Positions 2,873 through 61,774 of a DNA stretch of 64,000 bases are shown in pieces. Source of the stretch: Pelagomonas calceolata (Eukaryota; Sar; Pelagophyceae; Pelagomonadales; Pelagomonadaceae); contig CAKKNE010000003.1 in NCBI GenBank assembly GCA_918797485.1, positions 248,001 to 312,000 of the forward strand, in the 5' to 3' direction. Under the pieces are notes generated by a model, which made no database searches, was not told the origin of the DNA, and saw only the letters and a program-made list of their open reading frames with translations. The position numbers and the translations under genes are program-made. Numbering within the stretch: position 1 is the first letter of the stretch; every line of letters starts with the position of its first letter.

Positions 2873-3293
2873 TTTAACTTGGTTTTATTGTTACTTCGCG
2901 TCCGTCGGAGGGATGTCTATGGTCCTCAATGTCACGGGCCGCATTGGTATCAGCAGTAGGCTCATGTTTTAGGCCCAGGCAGAGAGTTGCAGACGCATGC
3001 TAGTGTCTTACAGACGTTAGCTCGGGGAGTTTCGGATGTTAAAAAAAAGCACCTAGATCTCACCAAGAACGTAAGCTCCCGCGCCTATACTTCGCGACGC
3101 AGTGCCGCCTGTGTGCGGTACGCGATTTCCGCGCAAACCGCGGGCGAAACGGCCGCGGATGTCCTAATCTTGCAGTTACAAAGCCGGCGCTCTTCACAGC
3201 CATACGCCGCGGGAGCGGATCGCGCGACGCCATCGACGATACGGGCGGCCGGCGCCCAACGCCCCACGTCTCTGCAGGCAAGAAACTCCACCA
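2873..3293. other. Intergenic leader of the heat shock factor gene
   Basis: 421 bases. Contains one copy of the recurring palindromic element (3000-3020) and, near 3220-3235, a stretch like the internal core of the introner elements (GACGCCATCGACG), followed by a possible 3' splice site at about 3279. This hints at a spliced 5' leader but neither end of such an intron can be fixed. Confidence 0.4.
3000..3020 (+). promoter_or_regulatory. Palindromic CTAG element, copy 1
   Basis: Left half CTAGTGTC, spacer like TTACAG, right half ACGTTAG. One base shorter than consensus, with one change in the right half. It lies about 270 bp before the heat shock factor start codon. Confidence 0.55.
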
Positions 3294-4433
3294 ATGCCCA
3301 CCCACTACGACGATTCCTCGGACTCGGACGGCGACGAGCCGGCGCCGACGCGCGCGTGCGGAGCCGGCGTCCGCGGCGCCGCCGCTCAAATCACACGCGC
3401 GTGAACGCAGGTACAAGCCGCGCCGCCGCAAGGTCATCCCCTTCCTCGAGAAGCTCGTGCAGCTCCTCCAGGAGGAGCCCGACGTGATCCGGCGCGCCGC
3501 CCGCGCGCGAAACCAATTTTCACGCCATCGACGCGAAACGTGAACGCGATCGCATACAGGTGGACGCGCGAGGGCAACCTCGTCATCCCCGACCCCGTCA
3601 AGCTCGAGCGCAAGCTCCCGCTCTACTTCCGGCACCAGCACTACTCGTCGTTCCAGCGCCAGCTGAACAACTTCGGCTTCAACAAGCAGCACAAGTCCGC
3701 GAGCCCGCTGAACTCGGTCTACGTGCGCATCAAGGGCGAGCAGCTCGCCGACGTCGACGTCGTCGAGCTCCTCCACCTCCGGCCCGTCCTCGAGCGGTCG
3801 ACGCTCCGCCGCGCCAAGCGCGCGCGCCGCGCCGCGCCGGCGCCCAAGGCGGCGACGCCGGCGAAGCGGCGCCGCGCGGCGCCCGTGACGCCGCCCGGCC
3901 GCGGCCCGGCGGCGCGGCCCGCCTTCCCAGACCGGGCGCCGGGCGCCTCGCCCGTGACGCCGCCGCGGCGCCGGCCCGTGCCCGTCGACCTGGGCCGGGC
4001 CGCGCCGGCGGCCTACGGGCGCCTGCCGCACGGCTTCACCTTCCGCGGCGCCGAGCCGACGACGCCGACGACGGTCAAGTCGCCGCTGAGCGGCGGCCTC
4101 GACGGCGTCGGCGACAAGCCCTCGCTGGCCGTCATCTTCTCGCGCAAGAACGACCCCATCGGCGCGCCGCACTTCGAGCCCTGCCTCGAGCCGCCGCCGC
4201 CGGGCGCGGGCCCGCGGACGTCGCGGCCCGCGTCGCCCGTCGACGACGACCTGCTCCTGTCGCCGCCGCCGCCGCTCTTCGCCGAGGACTGGGGCGCGCG
4301 CTGCTCGTCGCCGGAGCTCTGGGCGCACGTCGGCGACCTCGTCGAGGAGCCCGACGTCACGTACGCGGGCGGCTTCCCCGAGGACTACTCCGACGTCTTC
4401 GGCGCGCCGGCGGCGGCGCTCCCGGCCTTCTGA
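3294..4433 (+). CDS. Heat shock transcription factor (HSF), three exons
   Basis: Exons 3294-3355, 3411-3491 and 3560-4433 give 338 residues. The winged-helix HSF DNA-binding domain is split by both introns: KVIPFLEKLVQLLQEEPDVIR in exon 2 (stated here in parts: KVIPFLEKL, then QLLQEEPDVIR), then WTREGNLVIPDPVKLERKL and the hallmark FQRQLNNFGF in exon 3. The splice at 3491/3560 restores the conserved IR-WTREGN join and needs a GC donor. Intron 1 (3356-3410) is GT-AG and only 55 bp. After the domain come basic and Pro-rich segments and an acidic tail ending FGAPAAALPAF; no clear leucine-zipper trimerisation region is seen. HSFs bind nGAAn arrays and turn on chaperone genes; stramenopiles carry large HSF families. 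Family call is firm; exon 1 is less certain. Confidence 0.88.
3500..3559 (+). mobile_element. Degenerate introner element forming HSF intron 2
   Basis: The intron 3492-3559 (68 bp) uses a GC donor. Its inside has the family core CACGCCATCGACGCG and it ends ACAG like the other elements. The expected 8-bp duplication (bases after 3491 and after 3559) is no longer recognisable, so this is an old or degraded copy at best. Confidence 0.45.
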
Positions 4434-4597
4434 AGAAGGTCGCCGGGCAGCCCCCCACTCCTCCCCTTTTTGGTCTTGCGCACACGCGTTTTTGATCTGT
4501 CCACGTCCTCTCCTTCCCCACGTTCTTAACGTTCTCTTTTGTGACATCGCTAGGAGGGAGATGCCACTGACCGGCAACACATTTCAACAGTATTATC

Positions 4598-5434
4598 TTA
4601 CACGCTCCAGGGCGGGAGGACTGTGCCGAAGAGCTCGAAGTCCCGGATGTGCAGGCACCGCAGGGCCTCGATATCATGATCGCCATGCTCCGCAACTACG
4701 TCCAGCATTCGCAGCCGAAAGCGGGAGGACGCTACCGCAGTTCCATCAACATCGAAGCATTTCGCTGGTCCATCAAAGCCAAAGGGTATTTCCACCCATG
4801 GACTCGCACCGCACTCGTAGAGCACGTGCCACCGCTCGCCGTCGAACGCCTCGAACACCCAGTCCCCGAAATTACGCACACTGCACGAGCCGTGCGCGAG
4901 GCGGAAGCTGCTAAGTTGCAGCTGGAAGGGCAATTGAAACTCAACTAAAGTGCCTGAGAGCACGCAGCACTCGCCAATTGTAATCAAGTCCTCGTGCGAG
5001 TCCCGATCGACAACCTGGAACGGGAAGACCCTATCTTCACGTAGATGAACTACTGGGGCATCAAGGAGCCTTCGTTGAGGTATGATTCGGAGCCTCGAGG
5101 GCGGCATCGCCGCGTTGGTGATTTGTTCAAAATGAGGCGCCACCATGCAGGCATGGTAAGTAAAGCTAACTCTGCGCCATGGCTGCGTCCCAAGCGCCGT
5201 CGCTAGTGCGTGGACGACGCCGTGGTCGCTGCCGCGCAGCACATAGCTTTCCGAGCCGCGAAGGCGCGTCAACTCGTTCGACGTAGCCACGCCGCGCAGC
5301 GCTTTTGATGCGCCTCCCGCGATGCGGCGGCTGTCCGCTACAGAGAGGAAAGTCAGCACGCGTCGCAGCGCATCGTCGTCGAGCCCTCCCAGCGGCCCTT
5401 GCGCCGCGCGTCTCTGCGCGCGCGTGCGCGGCAT
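4598..5434 (-). CDS. F-box-like protein with discoidin-like C-terminal domain
   Basis: 278 residues. The N-terminal part (LDDDALRRVLTFLSVADSRRIAGGASKALRGVA) reads like an F-box, the Skp1-binding helix of SCF ubiquitin ligases. From about residue 95 onward comes a beta-rich domain with SFRLAHGSCSVRNFGDWVFEAF, an FRLRMLD strand and a closing LHIRDFELFGTV, which matches the pattern of F5/8-type (discoidin-like) domains of the HECTD1 kind in protists. A substrate receptor for ubiquitin ligation is a reasonable inference. Starts at the ATG at 5434, divergent from the glycosyltransferase. Confidence 0.6.
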   Translation of the reverse strand: MPRTRAQRRAAQGPLGGLDDDALRRVLTFLSVADSRRIAGGASKALRGVATSNELTRLRGSESYVLRGSDHGVVHALATALGTQPWRRVSFTYHACMVAPHFEQITNAAMPPSRLRIIPQRRLLDAPVVHLREDRVFPFQVVDRDSHEDLITIGECCVLSGTLVEFQLPFQLQLSSFRLAHGSCSVRNFGDWVFEAFDGERWHVLYECGASPWVEIPFGFDGPAKCFDVDGTAVASSRFRLRMLDVVAEHGDHDIEALRCLHIRDFELFGTVLPPWSV

Positions 5435-5538
5435 TTTTTCACCTCAGCTCCTCAGTTTTGAGCTATGTGGCTGCTGTGGGCCTTGAAAAGCACGCGTAAG
5501 GGTGGCTTTGGCTGCTATTTGCCAACTTTACCCGCTTG

Positions 5539-5560
5539 CTAGTGTGTTAGAGGACGCTAG
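5539..5560 (+). promoter_or_regulatory. Palindromic CTAG element, copy 2
   Basis: CTAGTGTG, spacer TTAGAG, GACGCTAG: two changes from consensus. Lies in the 272-bp divergent gap between the F-box and glycosyltransferase genes. Confidence 0.6.
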
Positions 5561-5706
5561 CAAGTTGCCTTGCCCCGGGCGCGTCGTCCGACGCCGCATG
5601 GGCAGCCCGTCTTCATCGACGGCGACTACGGAAGTACCACCCCACGCTGCCCGCCTCGCACGCGTGCGCATCTCAATTCTGCGCGGTGCACAACATTTGA
5701 CAAAGC

Positions 5707-7035: not shown

Positions 7036-7049
7036 AAGTTACTATGTAT

Positions 7050-8003: not shown

Positions 8004-8073
8004 GTGTTGTTGTTGTGGAGCCTGCCCCGGCGATAAGTTTCTGTACACAAATAATACTTAACGGGACACACAG

Positions 8074-8850: not shown

Positions 8851-8896
8851 TTACGGGCCTGGCCCAGCAAAAGGCTGCCAAAGCAAAAACGAGAAG

Positions 8897-8917
8897 CTAG
8901 CGGCTGTAAGGCACTAG
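8897..8917 (-). promoter_or_regulatory. Palindromic CTAG element, copy 3
   Basis: On the reverse strand: CTAGTGCC, spacer TTACAG, CCGCTAG. It sits in the 253-bp divergent gap, 47 bp upstream of the RING gene start. Confidence 0.55.
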
Positions 8918-9103
8918 CCAGCTAGCCGCCGCAGCTTTTAAGCCGCGCGCGCTGCTCTAGGCGAGCAAGCGGTGCTCTAACCGACGCTGAGAGAGCTCGC
9001 AGCAAAGCTGTCACAGCGCAGAAGCAGCGACGTTCGCTCTCAGCCCGCGCCACCCTCCGGTTGGCGACCAGTCCTTCAAACCAAAAAGAGGCTAAGCAGC
9101 CAG

Positions 9104-11063: not shown

Positions 11064-11457
11064 TCGTTGTTGGGCAGCTGTGTGATCGCTACGCGCGGTG
11101 CAGCTTTGGCCGGTCTCTGTGGTTGAGCTGTATGAGAGGCTATGAGCCACAGTGATGCAATGCGCTGTCCTGAGATGATCGCTGGGCTGCAGGCGTCGAG
11201 TGCACAAGAGCTGCGCGCCGGAGACGGCTGAAAATGCCTGCTGCGGGTTCGCCGAGCTAGCGTCCTGTGACATACTAGCAAGCTCTCCCTGGTTTTTGAA
11301 ATTAGAGCTACGAGCTTAAATTGCAACCACGACGCGTTTGCTCCGTTTCGTTGGGCTCTCTGCGTTGGCGACCTCCGCCGCGCTGCAAAAACCGCATCGC
11401 GCGGCAGGTCTAAGACCGCCAAAACCGCATCGCCGCGGCAGCGCCACAAACACAGCC
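11064..11457. other. Divergent intergenic region
   Basis: 394 bases between the Costars and UMP synthase starts. Holds palindromic element copy 4; apart from a second region rich in CCGCATCGC repeats (11390-11440, probably part of the leader) nothing else is seen. Confidence 0.45.
11257..11278 (-). promoter_or_regulatory. Palindromic CTAG element, copy 4
   Basis: Reverse strand: CTAGTATG, spacer TCACAG, GACGCTAG followed by CTCGG as in other copies. About 180 bp before the UMP synthase ATG and 190 bp before that of the Costars gene. Confidence 0.6.
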
Positions 11458-13041
11458 ATGTCAGCGACGCCCGGCTTCTTCGAGGCCCTCGCGGCACAAT
11501 GCAAGGCCAAGGACTCCTACCTCTGCGTCGGCTTAGATCCGCGCACCGCAACCGCAGAAGAGGCCCACGACGTCTGCTGCCGCCTCATCGACGCGACGAA
11601 AACACACGCGTGCTGCTACAAGCCCAACGCGGCCTTCTTCGAGGCGCACGGAGCGGCGGGCTGGGCCGCGCTCAAGGGTGTTATAGAGAAGATCCACGCT
11701 GTTGGCTCTTTATGTCTATTGGATTGCAAACGCGGTGACGTCGGGTCGACCGCGCAAGCCTACGCCAAGGCTTGTTATGATGACTTGAAAGCGGACGCGG
11801 TCACATTGTCACCTTACTTGGGGTATGACGCCATCCAGCCCTTTGTGACGGGACAATATGCCGGCAAAGGCGCGTTCATCCTCTGCGCGACGTCCAACCC
11901 CTCGGCCGACGAGATGCAATCGGACGCGTTGCGGGACCGCGTCGCGTCCTTATCATCAAATGGCGGCGCCTGGGGCGTCAAGACGGCCGTGGCCTCGAGA
12001 CCTCTGGGTCTGGTCGTCGGCGCGACGCGGCCGGCGGCCGTATCAGCGGCGCGAACTCAAAATGGAGACGCCTGGCTGCTGACGCCGGGCGTCGGGGCCC
12101 AGGGCGCCGACGCTTCTACAGTTGTGCGCGCGGCCCTCTCTTCATCTTCCAGAGACGTGCGGCTCGTCGTGCCCGTGAGCCGAGCGATCATGAACGCCGA
12201 CGACCCGTCTGCCGCCGCGCAAAAGCTCTGCCAGGAGATCCGGGACGCCATCAGCAATGCGCCGCCGCCCCCCTCTCTCACGGATACGCTCGCGGACGCG
12301 TCGCGTCGACTATCGGACACGATGACCTCCACCTTCCCCAGAACGGCAGAACTACTGACGGGAGGCGCGCTGAAGCCGCACCAGGCCAAGTTCGTCGGCT
12401 GCGTGCTGAGGAGCGGCGCTTTGAAATTTGGCTCGTTCCAGCTGAAGTCCGGACGGCAATCCCCGTACTTCTTCAACGCCGGCCTCGTCTGCGACGGGAA
12501 CGATGCCGCCGAGTTCTTCGACGCGTATGCTGCTGCTATACAAAACTCTGGCCTCGAATTTGATGTGGTCTTCGGGCCGGCCTACAAAGGTATACCTTTA
12601 TGTGCCGGCGTCAGTGCCGCATTGGCGGCGCGCGGCGTCTCCAGTTCGTTCGCCTACAACCGCAAGGAGGCCAAGGACCACGGTGAAGGGGGCACATTAG
12701 TTGGAGCGGCCGTGAAAGGTCGGCGCGTGCTGCTGGTGGACGACGTCATCTCCGCTGGTACTGCGGTAAGGGAGGCGACGGGTATCCTGGCGAAGGCCGG
12801 AGCCATTCTGGTGGGTGTTTGTGTCGCCGTCGACCGGCAGGAAGTCACAGGTGGTTCAGCGCCGCCCGCGCCCGGGAGTGAAAGAGTGTCGGCCGTCGAG
12901 GGCGTGCGGCGGGAGCTCGGCGTGCCCGTCGTGCCCATCCTCACTTTGACGGACTTATTGGCGTATCTCGAGGCCAAGGGCGGCAGCGACGAGCACGCGG
13001 CGAACGTGCGCAAGTACCGCGAGACGTACGGGGCCTGCTAG
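11458..13041 (+). CDS. UMPS: UMP synthase, OMP decarboxylase-OPRT order
   Basis: 527 residues from the ATG at 11458. The N-terminal domain is orotidine-5'-phosphate decarboxylase: YLCVGLDPR near residue 21 and the catalytic LLDCKRGDVGST near residues 85-96 (Asp-x-Lys-x4-Asp). The C-terminal domain, from about residue 300, is orotate phosphoribosyltransferase with FGSFQLKSGRQSPYFFNAG and the PRPP-binding VLLVDDVISAGTAVREA at about 424-440. Together they catalyse the last two steps of de novo pyrimidine synthesis. Animal and plant UMP synthases have the opposite order (OPRT first); the decarboxylase-first fusion is known in stramenopiles and kinetoplastids. A possible non-ATG upstream extension is ignored. 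Confidence 0.93.
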   Translation: MSATPGFFEALAAQCKAKDSYLCVGLDPRTATAEEAHDVCCRLIDATKTHACCYKPNAAFFEAHGAAGWAALKGVIEKIHAVGSLCLLDCKRGDVGSTAQAYAKACYDDLKADAVTLSPYLGYDAIQPFVTGQYAGKGAFILCATSNPSADEMQSDALRDRVASLSSNGGAWGVKTAVASRPLGLVVGATRPAAVSAARTQNGDAWLLTPGVGAQGADASTVVRAALSSSSRDVRLVVPVSRAIMNADDPSAAAQKLCQEIRDAISNAPPPPSLTDTLADASRRLSDTMTSTFPRTAELLTGGALKPHQAKFVGCVLRSGALKFGSFQLKSGRQSPYFFNAGLVCDGNDAAEFFDAYAAAIQNSGLEFDVVFGPAYKGIPLCAGVSAALAARGVSSSFAYNRKEAKDHGEGGTLVGAAVKGRRVLLVDDVISAGTAVREATGILAKAGAILVGVCVAVDRQEVTGGSAPPAPGSERVSAVEGVRRELGVPVVPILTLTDLLAYLEAKGGSDEHAANVRKYRETYGAC

Positions 13042-25846: not shown

Positions 25847-25868
25847 CTAGCGGTCTGTAACACACTAG
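25847..25868 (-). promoter_or_regulatory. Palindromic CTAG element, copy 5
   Basis: Reverse strand: CTAGTGTG, spacer TTACAG, ACCGCTAG. It lies 160 bp before the metallophosphatase start, between two genes in the same direction. Confidence 0.6.
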
Positions 25869-28012: not shown

Positions 28013-28432
28013 GTTGACAGGATCTTGAGACTTGAGAGAGAGTAGTCAACGGTCACGGACGCTATACTAACCCGGCGCGCGCGACGGCGGATCAGAGAGA
28101 TCCTGACCTAGCTGGACGGAACTGTTCTCTTGTCGCGACTCGCTAGAACCTCGCGAGGCACGTGCGCGTTTTAACCGCTCTGAAGGTACTGCCGCGTCTC
28201 GCCGCGGGCGGATTGAGCGGCTGTGGAGCTTGTTTTTTGGCTTTTCAGCTAGGATTCCTAGGCTCTGGATGCCTAGTGGCTTACAGGACGCTAGCTCGGA
28301 GCTCGACTCCTCAGTTTTTCGCCCGCCGGACACAGGGAGAGAGGGTTGGTTGGCGAGGCGGGTGAGACTTTGGAGGGGGGTGGGCAGCGGCCCGCGGCGC
28401 CCGCGAAGGAAACACAACATCATCCACATTAC
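28013..28432. other. Intergenic region between tandem reverse-strand genes
   Basis: 420 bases; holds palindromic element copy 6 and no gene. Confidence 0.45.
28273..28294 (+). promoter_or_regulatory. Palindromic CTAG element, copy 6
   Basis: CTAGTGGC, spacer TTACAG, GACGCTAG: a single change from consensus. About 260 bp before the start of the acylated membrane protein (which reads leftward). Confidence 0.65.
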
Positions 28433-30748: not shown

Positions 30749-31021
30749 CGATGATCACTGGTGATGCATTGCGTTCGTGCGACTAGCCGCTGGGCTGGAA
30801 AAGTGTTAGCAGCGCGAAACAGGGCCGGCGCGCAGCTGTGTGGCGCATACAGCTTTGCTTAGCCTTAGGTTCCTAGTGTCTTACAGTACGCTATCTCAGC
30901 AAGAGACTCAAGTTACAACAACTCGGCTCCTTACGTGCGACCAGCGGATTCAGGACGAGGGCAAATTGTGCGCATAAATCTTGGCCTGACGGAAGCCGAA
31001 TTTGTATCTAGATCACGGTGG
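30749..31021. other. Divergent intergenic region
   Basis: 273 bases with palindromic element copy 7 and a short purine-rich stretch before the next gene. Confidence 0.4.
30873..30894 (+). promoter_or_regulatory. Palindromic CTAG element, copy 7
   Basis: CTAGTGTC, spacer TTACAG, TACGCTAT: two changes, one in the last base. About 125 bp from each divergent start. Confidence 0.6.
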
Positions 31022-32190: not shown

Positions 32191-32211
32191 CTAGCGGCAT
32201 GTAGGCACTAG
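32191..32211 (-). promoter_or_regulatory. Palindromic CTAG element, copy 8
   Basis: Reverse strand: CTAGTGCC, spacer TACATG, CCGCTAG. It starts 10 bp after the upstream stop codon and 136 bp before the translocator start. Confidence 0.5.
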
Positions 32212-34624: not shown

Positions 34625-35488
34625 ATGGCCGAAGCGACGGCCCGGGCAGCCTCCATCAAACGCTACGGCGAGGCCCTGGGCGACCCGGCCCTTGCTGAGC
34701 AATGGGTGCAGACATCACCCGCAGGCGTGGACGACGTCGATGCGTGGATCGAGGCCGGCCGCCGCAGCGCGCCGGCCGTCGAGGCCGTCGCCGCGGCGCC
34801 GCCACGGCCTGCTCTCGACAAGGCGCCGCTGCCATCCGTGCTCGACAAGGCGGACGAGGAGCGGCTGGCAAAGGCTTACGCGGACAAACTCCTGGGCTGC
34901 GACGCGCACGACGCGCCGGCGTGGGTCCGCGCCGCCGCGGCCGCCGACGACGCGGGGGCCGCCGCCGCGTGCTGCGCGAGCGCCCTCCCCGCATCGGAGG
35001 GCAGCCTCGGAAAGGAGGACGTCGAGCGGCTATCCAAGGCTTACGCGGCCAAAATCCTGGGCTGCGACGCGCACGACGCGCCGGCGTGGGTCCGCGCGGC
35101 CGCGGCCGCCGACGACGCGGGGGCCGCCGCAGCGTGCTGCGCAAATGCCCTCCCCCCGAGCAGCCTCGACAAGGCGGACGTCGAGCGGCTATCCAAGGCC
35201 TACGCGAACAAAATCGCGTGTGAGGATCCCTACCCGTACGCTGCGCGGGGCGTCGAGCAGGATCGGGTCCCGTACGCGTACGCCGCCGACGACGACACCG
35301 AGGCCCGGCAACAGTGCAAGATACTGCTCTTGGACGCGTTCGACGACGACGCCGCGAAAGAGCGCCTGCGGGAGAAGGGGTTCGCGCTGGCGGACGACGA
35401 CGAGGTCGAGGCTCTGGAGCGGGAGCGCTGCCTGCGAGCGTTCAGCGAACATCGGTCGCCGGCAGCTGTCCCCGTGGAGGGTACGTAG
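34625..35488 (+). CDS. Protein with ~54-residue tandem repeats
   Basis: 287 residues from the ATG at 34625 (MAEATARAASIKRYGEALGD). Residues ~75-200 hold two and a half copies of a unit that reads LxKxDVERLSKAYAxKILGC, DAHDAPAWVRAAAAADDAGA, AAACCAxALP. At DNA level the units begin near 34841, 35006 and 35165 and are nearly identical, so the array is young. The C-terminal part is acidic (DDDTEARQQCKILLLDAFDD). The helical units look like a solenoid but I do not recognise them. Unknown function. Confidence 0.65.
   Translation: MAEATARAASIKRYGEALGDPALAEQWVQTSPAGVDDVDAWIEAGRRSAPAVEAVAAAPPRPALDKAPLPSVLDKADEERLAKAYADKLLGCDAHDAPAWVRAAAAADDAGAAAACCASALPASEGSLGKEDVERLSKAYAAKILGCDAHDAPAWVRAAAAADDAGAAAACCANALPPSSLDKADVERLSKAYANKIACEDPYPYAARGVEQDRVPYAYAADDDTEARQQCKILLLDAFDDDAAKERLREKGFALADDDEVEALERERCLRAFSEHRSPAAVPVEGT
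34841..35210 (+). repeat. Coding tandem repeat, 159-165 bp unit
   Basis: Two full copies and one partial copy of a unit starting CTCG(A/G)(C/A)AAGG(C/A)GGACG, spaced 165 and 159 bp. The difference of 6 bp keeps the frame. Confidence 0.75.
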
Positions 35489-35519: not shown

Positions 35520-36503
35520 TCACGCGATACAGTCCGGCCACGGCGGCAGGAACGGGTCCGCCGTCGCGTCCGCGGGCGCGGCCTTCGTCTCGCGGAACGA
35601 AAACTCCGCGACGACCGGCGTGTGGTCCGAATCGACGAAGTCCGGGTCCCACGCGTCGGCGACGCGGCGCGCCGCGACGAGGCGCGCGCCCGCCGCGTCG
35701 AAGCAGCCCGAGGACCTCTGGCCGCCTTCAGTACGATCCGTCGCAAATATATGATCGCACGACAGCGCGTCGCCCGTGTGCGCCCGGTGCGTCGTCCCGA
35801 GGAACGTCGTGCCGCCCGTTCCACTATCTAAAGCTTGCGTCGCCGCCGCGGCCGCGCAATTCGTCCAGCCGCGGGCCTCGAGGCCCCGGCACGCGGGCGC
35901 CGCCGCGTTCTCGTTGAAATCCCCGCACAGCACGGTCAACGACGCGTCGTCGCGGCGAGCTTGTCGCTCAGCAGCCGCGGCACAGGCCGACGCCTGCGCC
36001 TGGCGGGCGGCGGCATCGGCAAAGGGCAGGTGGCACGTCGCGACGACGACCGGCCGATCACCGCGTCGTTGCAGCGTCGCGACGAGGCCTGACCTCCCAT
36101 CGTCGAATACAGGCGCCGCCACGGCTTCCGACGCAACTAATGGGAGACGCGAGAAGATCGCGAGGCCGTCGCGGCGTTCGGATCCGTCGTGCGGGTGGAT
36201 GCCTCGACGCCGCGCGGTGCAGAGACGATGGGCCGGAAGCGCCTCCTCGAAGAGTTTCTGCCAGCGCGGCTCGAAGAACCATTCCTGAAAACATATTACG
36301 TCGGCGGCGCCCAACGCCTCGGCGACGAAGCTCGCCTGGCGTCGGCCGCGCGCGAGCCACAGCGCGTCGTCGTCTGCTTCTCGGTTGTTGCCGACGCTCT
36401 TGTGGACCGGGTTTAACACGTTATAGGTGGCGATTTGTAGGGTTGTTGGCTTCGCCGCGCTGGCGCACGCGATGAGCCATGCGTGCGCGAATCGCCGGCG
36501 CAT
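35520..36503 (-). CDS. Endonuclease/exonuclease/phosphatase-family hydrolase
   Basis: 327 residues. A hydrophobic start (MRRRFAHAWLIACASAAKPT) may be a signal peptide. All EEP motifs are seen in order: LQIATYNVLNPVHKS (Asn), ADVICFQEWFF (Glu), DGLAIFSRLPL, VVVATCHLPF (His), LCGDFNENAAA (Asp, Asn), CDHIFATD and the final DSDHTPVVAEF (Asp-His). This metal-dependent fold includes neutral sphingomyelinases, inositol 5-phosphatases, CCR4-type deadenylases and DNA-repair nucleases. The second-motif spacing is nearest to CCR4/angel-like or sphingomyelinase-like members; substrate not decided. Confidence 0.85.
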   Translation of the reverse strand: MRRRFAHAWLIACASAAKPTTLQIATYNVLNPVHKSVGNNREADDDALWLARGRRQASFVAEALGAADVICFQEWFFEPRWQKLFEEALPAHRLCTARRRGIHPHDGSERRDGLAIFSRLPLVASEAVAAPVFDDGRSGLVATLQRRGDRPVVVATCHLPFADAAARQAQASACAAAAERQARRDDASLTVLCGDFNENAAAPACRGLEARGWTNCAAAAATQALDSGTGGTTFLGTTHRAHTGDALSCDHIFATDRTEGGQRSSGCFDAAGARLVAARRVADAWDPDFVDSDHTPVVAEFSFRETKAAPADATADPFLPPWPDCIA

Positions 36504-36702
36504 CGTCGAATTCGACGCTGTCGAGCCGATGCAGCAGTCTAAGGTGCTTTACCAGCTTTGAATTTTGATGGGTGGGACGCGACGCTCGCCGCTGCAAGCA
36601 ATGGCATTTTACGTAAATCGATGAATATACTGTTGAAAACACGTGCGTGCGTGCGCTGCAGCCAGCGTTTAATCGAAGCAAAGGCAGCAAAACCAAAGCT
36701 GC

Positions 36703-36724
36703 CTAGCGTGTCGACACATACTAG
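36703..36724 (+). promoter_or_regulatory. Palindromic CTAG element, variant
   Basis: CTAG at both ends of a 22-bp unit, CTAGCGTG...CATACTAG, with a central GTCGAC. Related to the consensus at the ends only. Confidence 0.35.
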
Positions 36725-37274
36725 CCCTATTGTGGATGCGGACATGCAGCCGTTTGAGCACCGTTCAGTTCGCTACTGGTCCAAAGAGATCAATGGGACA
36801 CGTACTGGGGGCCAAAAATGGTATTGTTTTAATTGGCGGCGACGATGGCGCCATGGTCCATGCCGGCCACGCCGGTTTAATCCTGTCAATCCCTGCCAAA
36901 GAGGTCTCCCTGGGGTCGCCTAGGGTCGGTACTATACACGTGCAAACGCCTACGCCGCAAGCGCCGCCGCTTCAAGCATTTTTGGCCGATTTCTCTCAGC
37001 AGACCACTGCGTTTAGCCATCTTTAGGGCAGGTCTTGCTTCCAGGGCTCTCGGAGAGTACTAGGCTGCCGCATCGATGGCGTATGCGGTACAGACGACTA
37101 CCCACCACCAGACCTACCGCAAGAGGCCTCCAGGAGCCGATCTACCCCCGAAAAAAGTGTGCAATTTGGGCCCGATGGCGCCCCGTTCCCGTCAAAAACG
37201 TCAATTACCCGAGGGCCCCCAGTGGTCGCCGTAGCGGTCTCGTTGGACCCCATACTATCCCACCGATAGTCAAC

Positions 37275-37850
37275 TACAATTATATGGCATCTACATTATA
37301 AGAAGGGTACTTTTGGCTGCCCATGCTCGGGACGTGAACATCTGCATCTGGACCGCGCGCAAGTCGGTCGGTCATGAAACAAATGATCGTGACATGGTCC
37401 ATGGTGATGGTACACGGGCTGATGGCCGCAGATCCAAGTAATTCGCCAAAATTATTGAGATCATGGGCTCGCGAGTTGGCCGAGCCGCGCGGAGCATCGT
37501 GGGGTCTCGAGCAATTTGGTACACGTTCAGGCCGGTTATATGGCCCGTCCTAGAACCGAAGCGCCTAAAATGCAAATTTATTCTATAAACCACCGGTCTG
37601 GGGCCTTTCCGGTGCCCCGTCTACGCACCGTCGTCCGCGGAGAACGGGCAAGTCGATCGATTGTGAATAGAACAACGGCGTTATGGTCCACCTGGATGGT
37701 GGCGTCGCTGATACCCGCGGGTTCAGGTTATTTGTCCGTTTAGTATAAACGCGGGGTCCGCGGAGTTGCCTAATCGCGAGTAGCTTCCGGGTCCCTTAAT
37801 CTACCTAGTATTTGCTGAGGCGGCCTAGATGGACTCTACCACTAGGAAAC
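37275..37850. repeat. Degenerate direct repeat, ~290-bp period
   Basis: Two adjacent units of about 290 bp align by eye: CGCGCAAGTCGGTCGGTCATG (near 37354) with CGGGCAAGTCGATCGATTGTG (near 37645), ATGGTCCATGGTGATGG (37394) with ATGGTCCACCTGGATGG (37683), GGGCTCGCGAGTTGGCC with GGGGTCCGCGGAGTTGCC, and TCCTAGAACCGAAGCGCC with ACTAGGAAACGGAAGG. Identity looks like 60-70 percent. The repeats given here are shown in short pieces. No coding pattern. Confidence 0.55.
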
Positions 37851-38353
37851 GGAAGGAAACGAACATAAACTCGGGAGTTGTCTAGTAGAATTCTTTTCCC
37901 GTCCTCCGAGCGCGGGCCGTCGGCTCCGGTTCCGTCGAACTTGCATGAAAACTGGGCTGGAGTTGATATAATGTCTTAATTGGATAGTAGAAGGCGCCAC
38001 CAAACGCTGGTGTATTTTGACAACCCGTAAGTATCATCCGCAAATGTCGCGGGCGGTGCCTTCCGGGAGGCGCGAGGGTATGTTCCCGGACCGCTACTCT
38101 CAAATATTTGGGCGCGGCGAACGACTAGGATGTATTCTGAATTTTGGTTATTCTTTTGACGCTATCGACGCGTATCTTTGATAAGTGCTAGTAGGTATGT
38201 CGCTAGCTCTCGGTGCTTGCGCTTTTTTGCACGCCAGCGTGCGCTGGGGCCGTCGAAGGAGCAGTGTAGCGCCAGCATCCGTGTTAGGAATTCAGCGCGG
38301 TTCGTCGTGCCATCGATCACTTGTGGACTCCAGCTGCAACAGCACCGAGCAAC

Positions 38354-39529
38354 ATGGGCACCGCTGGCAGCGAGCGACGTAAACGCTGGCGGCACAAGGC
38401 CTGCCGCAGATTGCAAGCGCGAACAGCGCTGCGAAACGTCGCCGAGACGTTGAAGCAAGCGCGGCGCGACCCGTCCGACGAATCGCTGGAACGGCTGCGC
38501 GGTGCACTGCTGATGATCGAGCGTGCTGCCGCAGCGTCGCCTACGCTTGACGCCGCAGCGCAGAACTGTGCCAGGGCCTACGCCTTGGCGTTGTTCCAGC
38601 GCGGGCGCGCGCAAGAAGGCACGGTGATTCTGCGGCACCGCTTCCCGGACGCGCGCTACCGCCTCGCCGACGACGTGCTGCGGTACGGCACTGCGAAACC
38701 GGGCGCGACCAGGTTCGAGAAGGGCTCCGTCGGCGCGTTCGATGATGCACTGCCGGAGGCCCTCTTCCGCGCCGTGGCGCGCGCGCTCGCCCCAAAGGGT
38801 GCGTTCTGGCCCGCTCACGACTACGACGACGAGACGAGCGGCTTCTTCTCGTACGTGCACTCGCTGGACGAGGAGGGCGTCGTCGTCGAGGCGGCGCGGC
38901 GCTTTCGTGAACTCTTCGCCCGGGCCGTGCCGGCCATCGCGGAAGCGACGGGCATAGAATGGTGGACGCACCGCCGGCCGCACGGCGCCGGGCATCAGCT
39001 CCACTTCGACTCGGCGGACGAGGGCGCCGGAGCGGATGGGCCCGAGCATCCTCTATGTTCTGTCGTACTTTATCTGTCGGAGGCTCGCCTCGGCGGACCG
39101 ACACTCGTGACCACGCAATGTTCTGGTGATATAGAAATGCGCTGTCGAGATGCCGCCGCTTTGGTACCTGTGGCACCGAACCGCGCCGTCTGCTTCCGCG
39201 GCGATTTGTTGCATTGCGTGGTGCCGGGCCGTGGACCGGCGCCGGGCGGCGAGACGGCGCGGCGCGTCACGCTCATGATCTCGTTCTGGCGCCGGCCGCA
39301 CGCGCGACACGATCGAGAGGGTGCGCCCCGCGCGGCGATGCGCTTCCCGACCGACGACGAAGCGTGGACGGCGCCGTTCCGAGCCCGCGTCGACGGCGCC
39401 GACGACGCGAAGCCGACGCGCTCGGCGCCCGTGCCGGTGGCGCAGCTCTGGACCGCGGTCGACGCGGCGGCGGACGACGGCGAGACCGTTCCGCTGCCGC
39501 CGTACGAGGCTTGTTGGCAGGGATTTTAA
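38354..39529 (+). CDS. 2-oxoglutarate/Fe(II)-dependent oxygenase, prolyl-4-hydroxylase-like
   Basis: 391 residues from the ATG at 38354. The N-terminal ~110 residues are helical and basic. The double-stranded beta-helix core has the metal ligands H-x-D in GHQLHFDSADEG (about 213-224) and the distal His in FRGDLLHCVVPG (about 282-293), then the 2OG-binding Arg in ARRVTLMISFW. A conserved LCSVVLYLSEARLGGPTL segment lies between. Such enzymes hydroxylate proteins or small molecules with O2 and 2-oxoglutarate. No signal peptide, so cytosolic or nuclear. Substrate unknown. Confidence 0.82.
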   Translation: MGTAGSERRKRWRHKACRRLQARTALRNVAETLKQARRDPSDESLERLRGALLMIERAAAASPTLDAAAQNCARAYALALFQRGRAQEGTVILRHRFPDARYRLADDVLRYGTAKPGATRFEKGSVGAFDDALPEALFRAVARALAPKGAFWPAHDYDDETSGFFSYVHSLDEEGVVVEAARRFRELFARAVPAIAEATGIEWWTHRRPHGAGHQLHFDSADEGAGADGPEHPLCSVVLYLSEARLGGPTLVTTQCSGDIEMRCRDAAALVPVAPNRAVCFRGDLLHCVVPGRGPAPGGETARRVTLMISFWRRPHARHDREGAPRAAMRFPTDDEAWTAPFRARVDGADDAKPTRSAPVPVAQLWTAVDAAADDGETVPLPPYEACWQGF

Positions 39530-40468: not shown

Positions 40469-40775
40469 CACTGCTGCCCCACTGCTGCCCCACACACTCG
40501 CACCGCCCTAGACTCGCTGCCCACGCCCGAACGCGTGTCCTCCGGGCGTCTGTGACCACAATTCAACGCCGCTTTGAGTCTGGCCGCTGCGAATTTGAGC
40601 ATAATCTTAGCATAGACATACTAGTATAGCTCTAGATCCGCGTGCTCTCCCTGGCGTTGGACGCGCAGTGTTGGATACAAGCTCGCCAGAGTACATTTTA
40701 ACACAGCAGCGAGGCGTTGGGGCTGCCCCAGCGCGCGACAGCTGTGAAAAAGAGGAGTGGGCAGCCTCAGACACC
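40469..40775. other. Divergent intergenic region
   Basis: 307 bases. Holds a short direct duplication of CACTGCTGCCCC (40469-40492) and a diverged palindromic variant at 40606-40624 (CTTAGCAT...CATACTAG). Confidence 0.35.
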
Positions 40776-46098: not shown

Positions 46099-46441
46099 GA
46101 GTTATGCGTTGCTCTTGCTTTGTTCTTGCGTTGTTCTTACGTTGGCGCTGCGCTGTAGTGGTGCGCTTGGCGTTGCGCTGTGGTGCGCTTTTGCTCGCGC
46201 GTCGCGCCGCCGCGAAGCAGCTTGTGGTGTCCCACTGCGGTTTCGGTACTGAGCGGGTGCGGACGCGCGTGCAGTGCAACTGCACTCCAATCTCTGCGCT
46301 GCAACGATGCGCTGGTACCCTTGCTGCGTCTCAGGTTTCTACGCTATCCGTTTTTTACTGAGGGTCAAAGACTTTCATAAAAAAATATAATCACTCTAGT
46401 GTTTAGACATACTAGGATTTTCGATTTCGTACAAACAAACA
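46099..46441. other. Upstream region of the myosin gene
   Basis: 343 bases between tandem reverse-strand genes; contains T/G-rich pyrimidine-purine runs (GTTGTTCTTACGTTGGCG) and a palindromic variant at 46396-46415. Confidence 0.4.
46396..46415 (+). promoter_or_regulatory. Palindromic CTAG element, variant
   Basis: CTAGTGTT, short spacer, CATACTAG over 20 bp, about 300 bp upstream of the myosin start. Confidence 0.4.
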
Positions 46442-47532: not shown

Positions 47533-47552
47533 CTAGTGTCTTTCACCGCTAG
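47533..47552 (+). promoter_or_regulatory. Palindromic CTAG element, copy 9
   Basis: CTAGTGTC, spacer TTTCAC, CGCTAG, 20 bp long. Lies about 190 bp upstream of the reverse-strand start at 47341. Confidence 0.5.
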
Positions 47553-51280: not shown

Positions 51281-51302
51281 CTAGTGTCTTACTGGACGCT
51301 AG
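51281..51302 (+). promoter_or_regulatory. Palindromic CTAG element, copy 10
   Basis: CTAGTGTC, spacer TTACTG, GACGCTAG: a single change from consensus. Midway between the two divergent starts (about 190 bp from each). Confidence 0.65.
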
Positions 51303-56349: not shown

Positions 56350-56394
56350 ATGTGAACTTGAAACTTTGACTTCGTCACTATCCTCTTACCCAGA

Positions 56395-56883: not shown

Positions 56884-57360
56884 CCTCGAGGTGCTGCAGT
56901 GCGTGCTCTCCCTGAGCGGCAAGCCGAGGTCAGCGAGCCGTCTCGCTCTTTTGCAATGTGCAAAACTGCAGCGGTGCTAGCAAGTGAACACGCGTGTATC
57001 TCGAGCAGGGCGCCACTCAGCAGCGCTCTCAAAACTCGAGCCTCCACAGCCTCAAGGCTGAGATGCTAGTGCGTCAAAACACTAGCATCAAACCTCTTTC
57101 ACGGCGTGCAGCGCGTTGAATACGACTGAAGAACGAGTGTAACTCGTGCTCGCGGATGCTAGTCCTCGCACAAAAATTGCTGCAGGCCCTTTGCCATTGA
57201 GTGCTTTCCATCGCAGAGCTGCAACCCCAGTAACGCAGGGCTGGGTTTAAGCACGCGAGGGGACGCTCCAAGTGCTCGCAAAACCACACCTTGAAGCGCA
57301 GCGCTTGCCGTTACGTACCCACTGCTCCCCAAGTAGTCCAGTGCAGTGCAGTGCAGCAAG
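56884..57360. other. Divergent intergenic region
   Basis: 477 bases between the YbaB and trifunctional-enzyme starts. Contains a symmetric palindromic element (57064-57087) and a further CTAGC at 56976-56980. Confidence 0.45.
57064..57087 (+). promoter_or_regulatory. Palindromic CTAG element, symmetric variant
   Basis: TGCTAGTG, 8-base spacer, CACTAGCA: a perfect 8-bp inverted repeat. It lies 180 bp from the YbaB start and 273 bp from the trifunctional-enzyme start. Confidence 0.5.
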
Positions 57361-59592
57361 ATGCTGGCGACACGCCTCGGCCGCGCCCCGCGCGCGCTGG
57401 CGCGGCGCCACTTATCATCCAACGACCTCAAGTTTTTCGCGGGAGTGCCAGAAGTAACAAAAGAAGGCGTCGCGATTATCCGCCTCGACAACAAGAGCCA
57501 AAAGATGAACACGCTGAGCCCGGCCCTGCAGGACGAGGCCAAGATGCTGTGGAAGGAGCTGACGTCGAAGCACGACGTCAAGGCTGCAGTTTTCATCAGC
57601 AACAAGCCGGACAACTTCATCGCCGGGGCCGACATTGGGATGCTCGCCGCGAAGAAGAAGGCAGGGGAAGAGGACTCGTTGCGGGCCGTCTGCTTGTCAG
57701 GACACGCCATGTTCGACGAATTGAAGGGTTCAGGAGTGCCCTTCGTCGCGGCGATCCATGGTGCTTGCCTCGGCGGCGGTCTCGAGTGGGCGATGAAGTG
57801 CGATTCCAGAATCGCGTCGACGTCGCCGAAGACGAAGCTAGGCTTACCGGAAGTCAAGCTCGGATTATTACCGGGCTGGGGCGGCACGTACGCCTTACCC
57901 AAGCTCGTGGGCCTCACGGAAGCATTGCCGATGATCCTGCAGGGTAAAGAAGTGAGACCGGATAAAGCGAAGAAGATCGGGCTCGTTGATGCTGTTTGTG
58001 ATCCCGCCGCGCTCGAAGCTCTAGCGGTACAAACCGCAGTACAACTTTCGCAAGGTAAAAAAAAACAAAAGAAGAAGTCGTGGAAGCGCTGGGCCACCGA
58101 AGATATCAGTTTCGGGCGCGATTTCGTGTTCAAGAAGGCTAAGGAGACCGTCGACAAGACGACGCGTGGTAAGTATCCCGCGGCCTATGAAATCCTAAGT
58201 TGTGTGGAGAACGGCCTCGGGAAGCCGCCTTCGGACGCCTTCGCGTTCGAGGCCGACGCCTTCGTGAGGCTCGCGAAAACAAGTGAGTCGTCGGCGCTGA
58301 TCGGGCTGTTCGACGGCATCACGGCCGCGAAGAAGAACCCCTACCCCTCTACCACAAAACCGTCGTCTGTGGCGGTGCTCGGCGCGGGCCTCATGGGCGC
58401 GGGCATCGCGCAAGTTAGTGCCGAGAAGGGCTTGGCTGTAGCTTTGAAGGACGTCTCGCCCGAGGGTTTGGCCAAGGGTGTCGCGTACGTGGCCGGGAAT
58501 CTCGACAAGAAGGTGAAAAGGCGAAGGATGGACGCCTTCAAGCGGAACACCATTGTGAGTAGCATTACGGGCTACCACGACAGCGACGGGGGCAACGCCG
58601 AGGCGTTCGCCAAGAAAGCTTCTCAGTTGGACGTCGTCATCGAGGCGGTGTTCGAGAACCTGGAGCTCAAACATAAAGTGTTTGGTACTGTTTCAGGCTT
58701 AGTTCGGGACGACTGCGTCTTGGCGACGAATACCTCGGCGATACCTATCGAAAAAGTGGCTGCGGGTATTGATAAGCCGGAACGCGTCCTGGGCATGCAC
58801 TACTTCAGCCCCGTGCCGTCGATGCAGCTGCTGGAGATCATCCCCCACGCCGGGACGAACGAGGAGTCCATGTCGAAAGCGTTTGGGGTAGGCATCAAGC
58901 AAGGGAAAACATGCATCGAAGTCGCCGACGTGCCTGGGTTTTACGTGAACCGAGCCCTCGCGCCGATGATGGCCGAGGTGGCACCCTTGTTTGAGGATGG
59001 GGTCACGCCCAAACAGTTAGATGAAGCTATACTGGATCTAGGCATGCCCGTCGGGCCGATAACATTGTTAGATGAGGTCGGTGCTGATGTTGGTTTACAT
59101 GTCCAGCATACCATGTTGGCTGATGCTACCATGGGTTCGAGGATGGCGGGCGCCAAACCGGAAATGTTGCAACACTTGGTAGATCAGAACTGGAAGGGCC
59201 GCAAGGACGGGAAAGGCTTCTTCGTCTACAAGGGCAAAAAGAAGGAACCCCATCAAGAAGTCCTGGACTACGTGGAGAAGTCCATCAAACAGAGAGATGC
59301 TGAATTAACAAAGGAGCAGATCCAGGACCGCTACTTGAGTCGCTTTGTCAACGAAGCTTTGATCTGCCTCCAGGAGGGCATCCTCAAGTCGCCTGCCGAT
59401 GGCGACTTGGGCGCCGTCTTCGGCACGGGCTTCCTGCCCTTCACGGGCGGGCCCTTCCGCATGATCGACGCCGTCGGCGCGCAGCTCTACGCGGACAAGC
59501 TGTCGCGCCTGGCCGACGAGCACGGCGACCACTTCGCGCCGGCCCAGCTTTTGCTTGACCACGCGAAGGCCGGGACGAAGTTCCACCCCTAG
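57361..59592 (+). CDS. HADHA: Mitochondrial trifunctional enzyme alpha: enoyl-CoA hydratase / 3-hydroxyacyl-CoA dehydrogenase
   Basis: 743 residues from the ATG at 57361. An Arg-rich leader (MLATRLGRAPRALARRHLSS) fits a mitochondrial presequence. Hydratase half: FIAGADIGML, ACLGGGLEWAMKCDSRIAS, then LPEVKLGLLPGWGGTYALPK. Dehydrogenase half: NAD-binding VAVLGAGLMGAGIAQVSAEK at about 335-355, EAVFENLELKHKVF, TNTSAIPI and the catalytic HYFSPVPSMQLLEII at about 479. The C-terminal module continues GKGFFVYKGKKKEPHQEVLD to the end. Performs the hydration and dehydrogenation steps of fatty acid beta-oxidation as part of the trifunctional complex; the thiolase beta subunit would be elsewhere. Confidence 0.95.
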   Translation: MLATRLGRAPRALARRHLSSNDLKFFAGVPEVTKEGVAIIRLDNKSQKMNTLSPALQDEAKMLWKELTSKHDVKAAVFISNKPDNFIAGADIGMLAAKKKAGEEDSLRAVCLSGHAMFDELKGSGVPFVAAIHGACLGGGLEWAMKCDSRIASTSPKTKLGLPEVKLGLLPGWGGTYALPKLVGLTEALPMILQGKEVRPDKAKKIGLVDAVCDPAALEALAVQTAVQLSQGKKKQKKKSWKRWATEDISFGRDFVFKKAKETVDKTTRGKYPAAYEILSCVENGLGKPPSDAFAFEADAFVRLAKTSESSALIGLFDGITAAKKNPYPSTTKPSSVAVLGAGLMGAGIAQVSAEKGLAVALKDVSPEGLAKGVAYVAGNLDKKVKRRRMDAFKRNTIVSSITGYHDSDGGNAEAFAKKASQLDVVIEAVFENLELKHKVFGTVSGLVRDDCVLATNTSAIPIEKVAAGIDKPERVLGMHYFSPVPSMQLLEIIPHAGTNEESMSKAFGVGIKQGKTCIEVADVPGFYVNRALAPMMAEVAPLFEDGVTPKQLDEAILDLGMPVGPITLLDEVGADVGLHVQHTMLADATMGSRMAGAKPEMLQHLVDQNWKGRKDGKGFFVYKGKKKEPHQEVLDYVEKSIKQRDAELTKEQIQDRYLSRFVNEALICLQEGILKSPADGDLGAVFGTGFLPFTGGPFRMIDAVGAQLYADKLSRLADEHGDHFAPAQLLLDHAKAGTKFHP

Positions 59593-59707
59593 TCGGTCGT
59601 GTGTAAATTTATTTCCAAGTACGCGGCCTCGGAGACTACTACACTTCCTTACACTGTCGAACGACGCCCTTCGGGGCGCCGCGGGGACCTCTGGACGGAC
59701 GCACCGT

Positions 59708-60216
59708 CTAGTAGCGGCCATTGCGGTACGTCGGCGCGTCGCCGAGCGAGTCTAGCCGTAGCTTCGTCGCGACCGGCATGCCGACGATGATGCCGAGGAC
59801 CGAGATGACGTAAAACGGCGGCCACACGAAGAGCTGCGCGAACGGGCCAGACTCGTCGAGGAGCTCCTGGGCCTCGGCCAGCGTGTCGAACGACGTGAGC
59901 ACCGTCGGCAGCTCGCTGATGCCCTCGACCATCTTGACTGGGGTCGTTCGTGCGAGCTGTCGCGCCGGGGGCCTGCGCGGGGTGGCGCGGGTGACAGCTC
60001 ATATTTCCCAAGTCGACTTTCGCGTCGTCGGTCGACTCAGCGTTCTCGATGAACGCCTCGGCGCGCTGGGCCTCGGTCGCGCGCGATGGGCCGCAAAAAG
60101 ATGGCCAAATCATTGCAGCCAGCTTTGACAGCAATTATCTCAACGTACACAGCGTCTCGCGCGAAGCCCAAAGCGGATGTAAGGAGCCCAGCGATCAGAG
60201 CGATGACAGCGCGCAT
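59708..60216 (-). CDS. Small plastid membrane protein with signal plus transit peptide, one intron
   Basis: Exons 60216-60161 and 59972-59708 give 106 residues. Exon 1 is MRAVIALIAGLLTSALGF; splicing to exon 2 gives GFAPPARQLARTTPVKMVEG, so the signal peptide ends in ALG and FAPP follows: a textbook stramenopile plastid signature with Phe at +1. The mature part (~70 residues: ISELPTVLTSFDTLAEAQEL, then one helix LFVWPPFYVISVLGIIVGMP, ending APTYRNGRY) is a single-span thylakoid or envelope protein that I do not recognise. The intron 59973-60160 uses a GC donor. The frames only agree when it is removed, which supports the model. Confidence 0.72.
59973..60152 (-). mobile_element. Possible introner element in the plastid-protein intron
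   Basis: After the GC-donor octamer GCGAGACG (60153-60160), the gene-strand sequence starts CTGTGTACGTTGAGATAATT, matching the family start CTGTGTGGAAATC in part, and the intron ends CACCCCGCGCAG. The 8-bp copy after it (GCCCCCGG) differs at half its positions. An old copy is likely; the middle is unlike the others. Confidence 0.45.
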
Positions 60217-60475
60217 GGTTTGTTGGATGGGTGAGTAGCCGCGTAGCACTGACGACGTGAGGCAGAGCCCAGGGCAGATTTTCATGTGGCATCAGATCCC
60301 GTACAGTGGCTCGAAAGCTCCCGAAGAGGCCCGTACAGGTAGGTTGGGAGCCGATGGGCGGCCGTGGTGCCGCTGGACCGGCCGGCGCCGACCCGCGGGG
60401 CCGCGGCGCCCCGAGGAGGACCCCACCCCTCGACGCCTAGTCGACGCGACGCCCCATAAATATAGCAAATAATAC
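60217..60475. other. Intergenic region between tandem reverse-strand genes
   Basis: 259 bases; GC-rich, no element recognised. Confidence 0.35.
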
Positions 60476-61453
60476 TTAGGCCCACTTGCGCCGCTTCATG
60501 CGCCGCTCCTCCTCCTTCTGCTTGCGCTCGGTATGTCTAATCCACTTCTCGACGTCGTTCGTGTCGACCTCGAAGTCCTTCTTCTTGTGGAGGCGCTTGA
60601 CGACCTCTTTCGGCGATAATGCGGGGATGTGGACGATCTTATCTAACGATTCATCACCGTCGGTGATCTTGACCGCGTTCCTCTCTCGTTGGGGCACGTG
60701 TAATGCTCTTCTACAAAATGCTAGGAGTGCTTGGTTGCACCACCTATCCTCGATCGGTGCCCTTAATGCTACGAGCGCGGCATAGTCCTTGACATCTAAA
60801 ACCGCGTCTTCCTCCTGCGCTGGTTTTACTATCACACGTAGTAGGACACCGTCCCCAATAGGCTCGCAGATGGAGTCGCCTTCGGCCGCTTGGCATAACG
60901 CGTCGAAATCATCGTTCTTCGGCCCGACCGCGGGATCGTACAGTTTTGCGGGTTGGTCCTTGCCCGAAACTTCCGCGGGCTCCTCCCACTGCGACACGCC
61001 CGTCCTCTCGTTGTACCAGTACCGCACGCCACCGTTCGCGACGACGCGCCAGCCGTGCGCCGGCGTCGGTTCTACGGGTGCTACGGGGCCTCCTGCCGCT
61101 AACAAAGCCGCTTCTCTCCCCTTCTTCTCTTCCTCCACGCCATAGGCGACTTCACAGGGCAGCGGATCATCAAAAAACTCCGGCGGCGGCGACTTGGCGC
61201 CTTCATCCACATCATCTCCGGGCGGCGGTGGCTCGTCGTCGTTCTCGGCTCGCGCCGCCGCGGCTACTCTTGGTAGTACTAACGGCGGCGGCTCGGGCAT
61301 GGGTGCGGCTTGTTGTTGGGGGGGCATCATGGGCGGCGGGGCCATGCCGCCCATCGGCGGCGGGGCCATACCGCCCATCGGAGGGGGGGGCATGCCCATC
61401 TGTGGTGGGACGCCGGCCATCGGTGGTGGGACGCCCATGGGTGGCGCGTACAT
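60476..61453 (-). CDS. WW-domain, Pro/Met-rich protein
   Basis: 325 residues from the ATG at 61453. The N-terminal 55 residues are PPM/GMAPPPM repeats (MYAPPMGVPPPMAGVPPQMG). A WW domain lies at GWRVVANGGVRYWYNERTGV followed by SQWEEPAE, with both Trp and the Tyr pair. An acidic PPPEFFDD stretch precedes it. The C-terminal third has EVVKRLHKKKDFEVDTNDVE, then a basic end (RKQKEEERRMKRRKWA). Pro-rich plus WW plus basic helices is the usual build of splicing or transcription-coupled factors (FBP11/PRPF40-like in style); no FF domains are seen. Probably nuclear. Confidence 0.72.
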   Translation of the reverse strand: MYAPPMGVPPPMAGVPPQMGMPPPPMGGMAPPPMGGMAPPPMMPPQQQAAPMPEPPPLVLPRVAAAARAENDDEPPPPGDDVDEGAKSPPPEFFDDPLPCEVAYGVEEEKKGREAALLAAGGPVAPVEPTPAHGWRVVANGGVRYWYNERTGVSQWEEPAEVSGKDQPAKLYDPAVGPKNDDFDALCQAAEGDSICEPIGDGVLLRVIVKPAQEEDAVLDVKDYAALVALRAPIEDRWCNQALLAFCRRALHVPQRERNAVKITDGDESLDKIVHIPALSPKEVVKRLHKKKDFEVDTNDVEKWIRHTERKQKEEERRMKRRKWA

Positions 61454-61774
61454 GTTTGCAGCGTTCAGAGCTGTGCGAGGTCGTCTCCGCAGCTGTATGA
61501 TTACTACCGCCGTCTCGCCGTCGCGGCGCTCAGCGGCCAAAACTAGTGTGTCAACCCCGCTAGCCGTCCAAATTTGCGAGGTGCCTGAAAACGCCTACAG
61601 ACGGCGCTAGCAGGCGTGCACCGCTCACCTAATTTGTGTTTGTTTAACGCTACATGATCTGCGAGATCGCCTAGGCAGCTCGCGCGTCGTGAAACCTCGC
61701 ACCGCTTTGACACGCGGCCGAAACCCAGCAGCAGCCGAGAAGCATAGCTTGCGGACCGGCGCGGCTCACGCAGC
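61454..61774. other. Divergent intergenic region
   Basis: 321 bases with one palindromic element (61544-61564) and a second CTAGC at 61605-61611. Confidence 0.45.
61544..61564 (+). promoter_or_regulatory. Palindromic CTAG element, copy 11
   Basis: CTAGTGTG, spacer TCAAC, CCCGCTAG. Ninety bases from the WW gene start. Confidence 0.5.

Follow-up and report, generated by a model that had tools for sequence, protein, structure and literature searches.

Two kinds of promoter site from other organisms stand closest to the element described here. The CGCG element (TCTCGCGAGA) of vertebrate CpG-island promoters is palindromic, belongs to TATA-less divergent promoters and is reported to work bidirectionally whichever way it is turned; it is 10 bp long and gapless, and one inserted base abolishes its activity (PMC6192621, available text). 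In yeast, Abf1, Reb1 and Rap1 are abundant promoter-organising factors with many intergenic sites (PMC9481977, available text). We analysed a stretch of 64,000 nucleotides from the pelagophyte alga Pelagomonas calceolata (contig CAKKNE010000003.1, C3:248001-312000; hereafter the window), in which an earlier note had pointed out a palindrome recurring upstream of genes, together with the rest of the genome. The element is abundant and is retained between species. Judged from its letters and placement, it is most likely a bidirectional promoter element of a new kind, long and bipartite.

Like the CGCG element, the algal element is palindromic, lies at divergent promoters and occurs in both orientations, although for the alga this is known from position only. 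It differs in its length of 20-22 bp, its two boxes and its tolerance of arm spacings of 16-18 bp, and its consensus, GCTAGTGTSTTACA-N-CGCTAGCT, does not match the CGCG sequence. Like the sites of the yeast general regulatory factors, it occupies numerous gaps between the genes of a compact genome; the Abf1 sites of yeast are, in addition, bipartite and gapped. Here too the sequence is another one, and the algal position suggests service to both genes, whereas the yeast factors are reported to limit divergent noncoding transcription. The ZNF143 site, a long and information-rich vertebrate promoter motif that is frequent at divergent promoters, has, as commonly described, another sequence and no inverted CTAG arms. 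By analogy, then, the algal element would work most like the CGCG element and the yeast general regulatory factor sites, while by the tests made it is a member of neither.

Literature searches by the letters CTAGTGTC and for promoter motifs of pelagophytes, stramenopiles or microalgae found no report of the element among the titles and abstract openings of the top matches, a scope outside which supplements, preprints and most subscription papers fall. The word 'motif' is absent from the available main text of PMC9481584 and PMC13284251, and a word search of the available text of PMC12054182 was likewise without occurrence.

Architecture and abundance

The genome comprises 32,445,274 bases in 8 contigs (six nuclear, one plastid, one mitochondrial). 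Our fitting sample of 324 kb consists of the window, C1:1,000,001-1,200,000 and C4:2,000,001-2,060,000; a model of two boxes with a free gap was fitted to it, with a cut at score 9. The resulting 80 elements are 20-22 bp long, with the consensus TTGCTAGTGTSTTACA-N(2-5)-CGCTAGCT, and carry about 29 bits (19.8 in the left box and 12.0 in the right, minus 2.4 for the entropy of the gap). The earlier note had read an 8-6-8 palindrome with a fixed spacer; the inverted arms stand, but the element is bipartite and its gap varies in length. We gave up a fixed 22-mer in favour of the gapped model because the arms are commonly spaced by 16 or 17 as well as by 18 bp: the CTAG arms lie mostly 16-18 bp apart, start to start, and rarely more. 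A search of the sample that was blind to the centre (CTAGYR...YRCTAG) found 10, 15 and 34 arm pairs at spacings of 16, 17 and 18, where 0 to 0.2 were expected, with 8 further pairs at 13-15 and 2 at 19-20. Two classes of centre are set between these common arms, class I reading TSTTAC and class II TRTGTC, often CTAGTRTGTCGATACGCTAG; class-II-like elements make up 15 of the 80. A trailing CTCGG, once thought frequent, follows only 4 of the 80, and CT alone follows 42.

As a check on chance, three third-order Markov copies of the sample were scored with a closely similar 84-member model. Their top scores were 15.9, 14.0, 9.7, 9.4, 9.3 and 9.0, while 75 of the 80 real elements score above 16; thus a few of the weakest elements may be chance matches.

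With up to 3 mismatches allowed, the 22-mer has 6 copies in the window, against none in 100 shuffles, and the genome-wide search of this kind that had been proposed earlier returns 2,192 copies against none for the reversed pattern. Strict class-I copies number 2,334 across the genome, evenly split between the strands (1,180 and 1,154) and with a reversed control of 0. The left box alone is found 2,723 times (control 1), so that the right box is present in 86%. The class-II pattern occurs 435 times, a few of these also with TTAC (control 2). Arm pairs at 16-18 bp with any centre amount to 4,355, for which the control of 114, being of other composition, is a rough guide only. Extrapolated from the sample (59 arm pairs, 80 elements), the genome would hold about 6,000 elements, the sample being richer than the genome (59 arm pairs found against about 43 expected from the 4,355). 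No viral copies were found in IMG/VR with the strict, gapped class-I and class-II patterns, and the window together with seven loci gave no Rfam match at the gathering score.

Position relative to genes and retention in relatives

Coding segments, which make up 79% of the sample DNA, are those of a 7-state coding model trained in this analysis, and gene positions are given by it without transcripts. Divergent gaps hold 51 of the 80 sampled elements, and tandem gaps another 25. Convergent gaps hold just 2, and coding segments a further 2 that are both weak, a depletion from coding DNA with a binomial p of about 1e-49. All of the 61 elements scoring above 25 are divergent (43) or tandem (18). 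In this sample, five times the size of the window, the earlier claim that the palindrome occurs upstream only thus almost holds, the exceptions being the two coding and two convergent cases; we checked whether copies are as dense in genes or convergent gaps as elsewhere, and they are not. Counted by gap, an element is present in 49 of the 76 divergent gaps, in 24 of the 88 tandem ones and in 2 of the 76 convergent ones. Such enrichment between divergent starts over coding and convergent DNA is what a bidirectional proximal promoter element should display.

Exactly one element is present in 47 of the 49 occupied divergent gaps, in keeping with the note's 'usually one per gap'. Random placing fills 35.5 +- 2.5 divergent gaps, 11.3 of them with more than one element, and none of 10,000 trials reaches 49. 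The elements are also central in these gaps, as central as in none of 5,000 random placings. Their distance to start codons has a median of 203 bp, with quartiles of 168 and 275 bp. The upstream stop codon of a tandem gap is sometimes only 7-30 bp away, and the downstream start mostly about 150-300 bp. Both directions do occur: 14 tandem elements have the same orientation as the downstream gene and 11 the opposite, and the divergent gaps hold 34 elements on the contig plus strand and 17 on the minus. At the level of position, independence of orientation is indicated by these mixed tandem orientations and by one reversed ortholog (below). Eight 3-kb loci were picked by motif, one of which (L005) falls within the sample; in the seven outside it the anchoring element is in a divergent gap five times and in a tandem gap twice, only this position being informative in loci so chosen, and two further elements near locus ends are unclassed.

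Base composition changes around the element as well. AT content is 0.40-0.49 within 100 bp of its centre (motif included), against about 0.34 further out, which makes an AT-richer zone about 200 bp wide. The nucleosome-boundary or insulator site that the earlier note had also offered is neither favoured nor contradicted by the element's place in this zone. T is scarce beside the start codon and climbs gradually to background by about -150 to -200, a profile that hints that transcripts may start between element and gene.

The elements of the window, with model scores, are these.

3000..3020, plus strand: class-I element, arm spacing 17, right arm varied (GTTAG); score 37.6
5539..5560, plus strand: class-I element in a divergent gap; score 39.2
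8897..8917, minus strand: class-I element, arm spacing 17; score 37.2
11257..11278, minus strand: class-II-like element in a divergent gap; score 39.5
25847..25868, minus strand: class-I element in a tandem gap; score 37.5
28273..28294, plus strand: class-I element in a tandem gap; score 35.9
30873..30894, plus strand: class-I element in a divergent gap, right arm varied (GCTAT); score 36.3
32191..32211, minus strand: class-I element in a tandem gap, upstream stop codon 11 bp before; score 26.0
32884: weak model match inside a coding segment; score 16
36703..36724, minus strand: class-II-like element in a 2-kb divergent gap; score 20.0
38188..38206, plus strand: variant on the opposite side of the same 2-kb gap; score 17.7
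40607..40624, minus strand: doubtful degenerate element; score 6.9, below the cut of 9
46396..46415, minus strand: class-II-like element in a tandem gap, arm spacing 16; score 22.1
47533..47552, plus strand: element in a tandem gap, arm spacing 16; score 28.5
51281..51302, plus strand: class-I element close to the consensus, in a divergent gap, and the sole exact 8+8 match; score 43.2
57066..57085, plus strand: class-II-like element in a divergent gap, arm spacing 16; score 25.9
61543..61563, plus strand: class-II-like element in a divergent gap, arm spacing 17; score 16.1

All ten copies that the earlier note rated good are in place. Among its five variants, those at 36703, 46396, 57066 and 61543 exceed the cut (scores 16-26), and the one at 40606 is marginal at 6.9; the variant at 38188 was absent from it. 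The 2-kb divergent gap (window 36503-38512) contains two elements, at about 200-320 bp from one or the other flanking start, and there may be a transcribed feature between them.

A scan of prokaryote genomes with the motif returned 14 stretches, labelled by locus. Four of them (L035, L037, L039, L047) come from a metagenome-assembled genome (MAG) named Spirochaeta sp. MED672. Because L039, L047 and L037 match P. calceolata in long blocks at 80-94% identity, they are pelagophyte-like, most likely misbinned pelagophyte DNA; L035 is assumed to be so by its shared MAG of origin. L036 and L041, from Tara bins, match P. calceolata at 90-96% over part of their length, and L040 is assumed pelagophyte-like by composition and coding model. 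The other 7 look like chance, by composition and coding model only. Pelagophyte-like nuclear contigs are binned in bacterial MAGs that serve as species genomes, both in MED672 and in the Tara bins. None of the 11 elements in L035, L036, L037, L039, L040 and L047 is inside a coding segment; 2 are divergent, 6 tandem and 3 near locus ends.

We compared 7 of 9 elements of the MED672 relative with their orthologous places in P. calceolata (L039:4285 and L035:7901 were left out). The relatives had been picked by motif, and the test is accordingly whether P. calceolata has the element too. In 5 of the 7 a clear element is present in both, with 19-21 of 21-23 core positions identical. Four of these keep their orientation (L047:580, 20/22; L047:2680, 19/21; L037:1059, 21/22; L039:2193, 21/23), and the fifth, L039:5347 (20/22), is clear but turned the opposite way: by BLAST the element is a 27-bp minus match, while the neighbouring coding blocks match on the plus strand. 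This neighbourhood has also changed otherwise, a short minus-strand coding segment being predicted only in P. calceolata. The 40-bp flanks of the five are 46-68% identical in forced global alignment, partly no more than chance. Of the remaining two, L039:7630 has a degenerate element in the relative against a clear one in P. calceolata (15/22), and L039:456 is class-II-like in the relative (score 18.5), where P. calceolata has only CTAGTATGTCCATTGATCTAG, below the model cut and read by eye. No clean empty site was seen among the 7 compared, P. calceolata having a model match at 6 and a sub-threshold CTAG pair at 1; loss of position in relatives was looked for and not found. In nearer strains L036:2141 (22/22) and L041:5575 (20/20), with flanks of 82-88%, are too close to be informative.

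Two dispersed repeats were met at these loci. One, of about 157 bp, occupies at least 40 places of at least 120 bp in P. calceolata at 81-88% identity (40 of 232 candidates scored), among them C6:2246149-2246304 (L050) and C1:25749-25869 (L001), and is present at L039:299-455 as well. It follows shortly after a stop codon in L039 and L050, is adjoined by the promoter element in L001 and L039, and has no Rfam match. L047:1432-1545 and 2251-2400 contain another short dispersed repeat, with many matches of 50-150 bp on both strands of P. calceolata.

Proposed function and alternatives

We think it likely that the palindrome is an orientation-independent proximal promoter element that acts as DNA, is bound by one or more sequence-specific proteins of the alga and serves shared promoters. 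Good indirect support exists for the earlier suggestion that divergent genes share a promoter element: the palindrome is mostly single in its gap, central, present in both orientations and retained in a relative. The proposed site on double-stranded DNA is bipartite: two inverted GCTAGYG half-sites stand 16-18 bp from each other, and the centre, TSTTAC (or TGTC), keeps a fixed place beside the left one. As a rule one copy would serve an intergenic promoter region, in either orientation and in divergent gaps for both genes at once, and it would promote transcription in both directions. The left half and centre would be contacted as one extended stretch and the right arm separately, since the length variation, mostly 1-2 bp, sits between centre and right arm. 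A rigid dimer would tolerate such variation badly, so two flexible domains or two proteins are to be expected as the binder. There is nearly an even chance, by analogy with the general regulatory factors, that the element acts by keeping the middle of the gap nucleosome-free. It is possible, if somewhat doubtful, that a lineage-specific general regulatory factor clamps one long bipartite palindrome in the middle of the shared promoter at many pelagophyte promoters; such a factor might have two DNA-binding domains or a transposase origin, and the centre classes might be two binding modes or paralogues of a founding factor.

Several observations weigh against a promoter element of this kind. A weaker mid-gap rise in AT is also seen in 24 gaps without an element; codon score and GC content at third codon positions (GC3) do not differ between 119 genes with an element and 107 without; and 27 of the 76 divergent gaps and 64 of the 88 tandem ones have no element, so that some promoter gaps evidently do without it. 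As RNA, too, the palindrome can fold, its arms pairing with G-U wobble on the canonical strand (mean over 61 elements -9.25 kcal/mol, against -6.72 for the other strand and -4.30 for shuffled sequence). A hairpin in leaders or other transcripts is nevertheless very improbable: despite the better fold of the canonical strand, the mixed orientation to the downstream gene and the reversed ortholog at L039:5347 disfavour it. The empty minority of divergent gaps, and the two centre classes on common arms, would suit an ordinary activator or repressor site of a large regulon (light, cell cycle or nutrients, for example), with one site regulating two divergent genes and no general chromatin role. We regard this as unlikely, since about 6,000 copies for 16,667 genes (gene number from the available text of PMC9481584) would be large for a regulon; ten window proteins beside elements, an anecdotal set, belong to unrelated families or to none.

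The mid-gap position between divergent genes, and the limiting of divergent noncoding transcription by yeast general regulatory factors (PMC9481977, available text), would also fit a boundary, directionality, roadblock or replication-related site rather than an activating promoter element. This is improbable in view of the tandem gaps, where elements as near as 7-30 bp to the upstream stop mostly still keep their usual distance from the downstream start: the start codon, not the gene border, seems to set the place of the element. Near absence from convergent gaps speaks against it too. The remains of a tiny mobile palindrome, as the earlier note had also considered, or of introner-like elements, are suggested by thousands of similar short inverted-repeat copies, by introns of introner length reported for the P. 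calceolata genome, peaking near 210 bp (PMC9481584, available text), and by one target-duplication test (offset 3, length 3: 6 of 80 against 1.4 in shuffled sequence). Introners, however, are introns with that peak of about 210 bp, and the algal element has 20-22 bp and lies upstream of genes. The other target-duplication tests (lengths 3, 4 and 6; five offsets) gave 0-3 of 80, hence no clear duplications; homology is lost a few bases beyond the motif; copies are mostly one per gap and nearly absent from coding segments; and they sit at corresponding places in the relative. A mobile origin, disfavoured on target duplication, flank homology and retention between species alike, is barely credible.

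If the palindrome is indeed a proximal promoter element, a site of 29 bits standing mostly once per gap at thousands of promoters would give a first handle on how promoters are marked in these algae, and would make pull-down of the binding factor straightforward. It would also offer a natural case in which to examine how a long bipartite palindrome can serve a pair of genes at the same time.

Minor observations

Two other words are over-represented in promoter gaps of the sample, ACGCCATC/GATGGCGT with 47 occurrences against 3.7 expected and GGCTGCCC/GGGCAGCC with 54 against 6.0; this second word occurs within about 150 bp of start codons, and elsewhere too. The genome-wide motif scan showed that contigs 1 and 5 have twinned ends, with twin motif places near both ends. 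Within the window, an open reading frame contains a unit of 150-165 bp in two to three tandem copies (34836-35215), and 11458-13041 encodes a fused pyrimidine enzyme in the order orotidine monophosphate (OMP) decarboxylase, then phosphoribosyltransferase, the reverse of the animal order.

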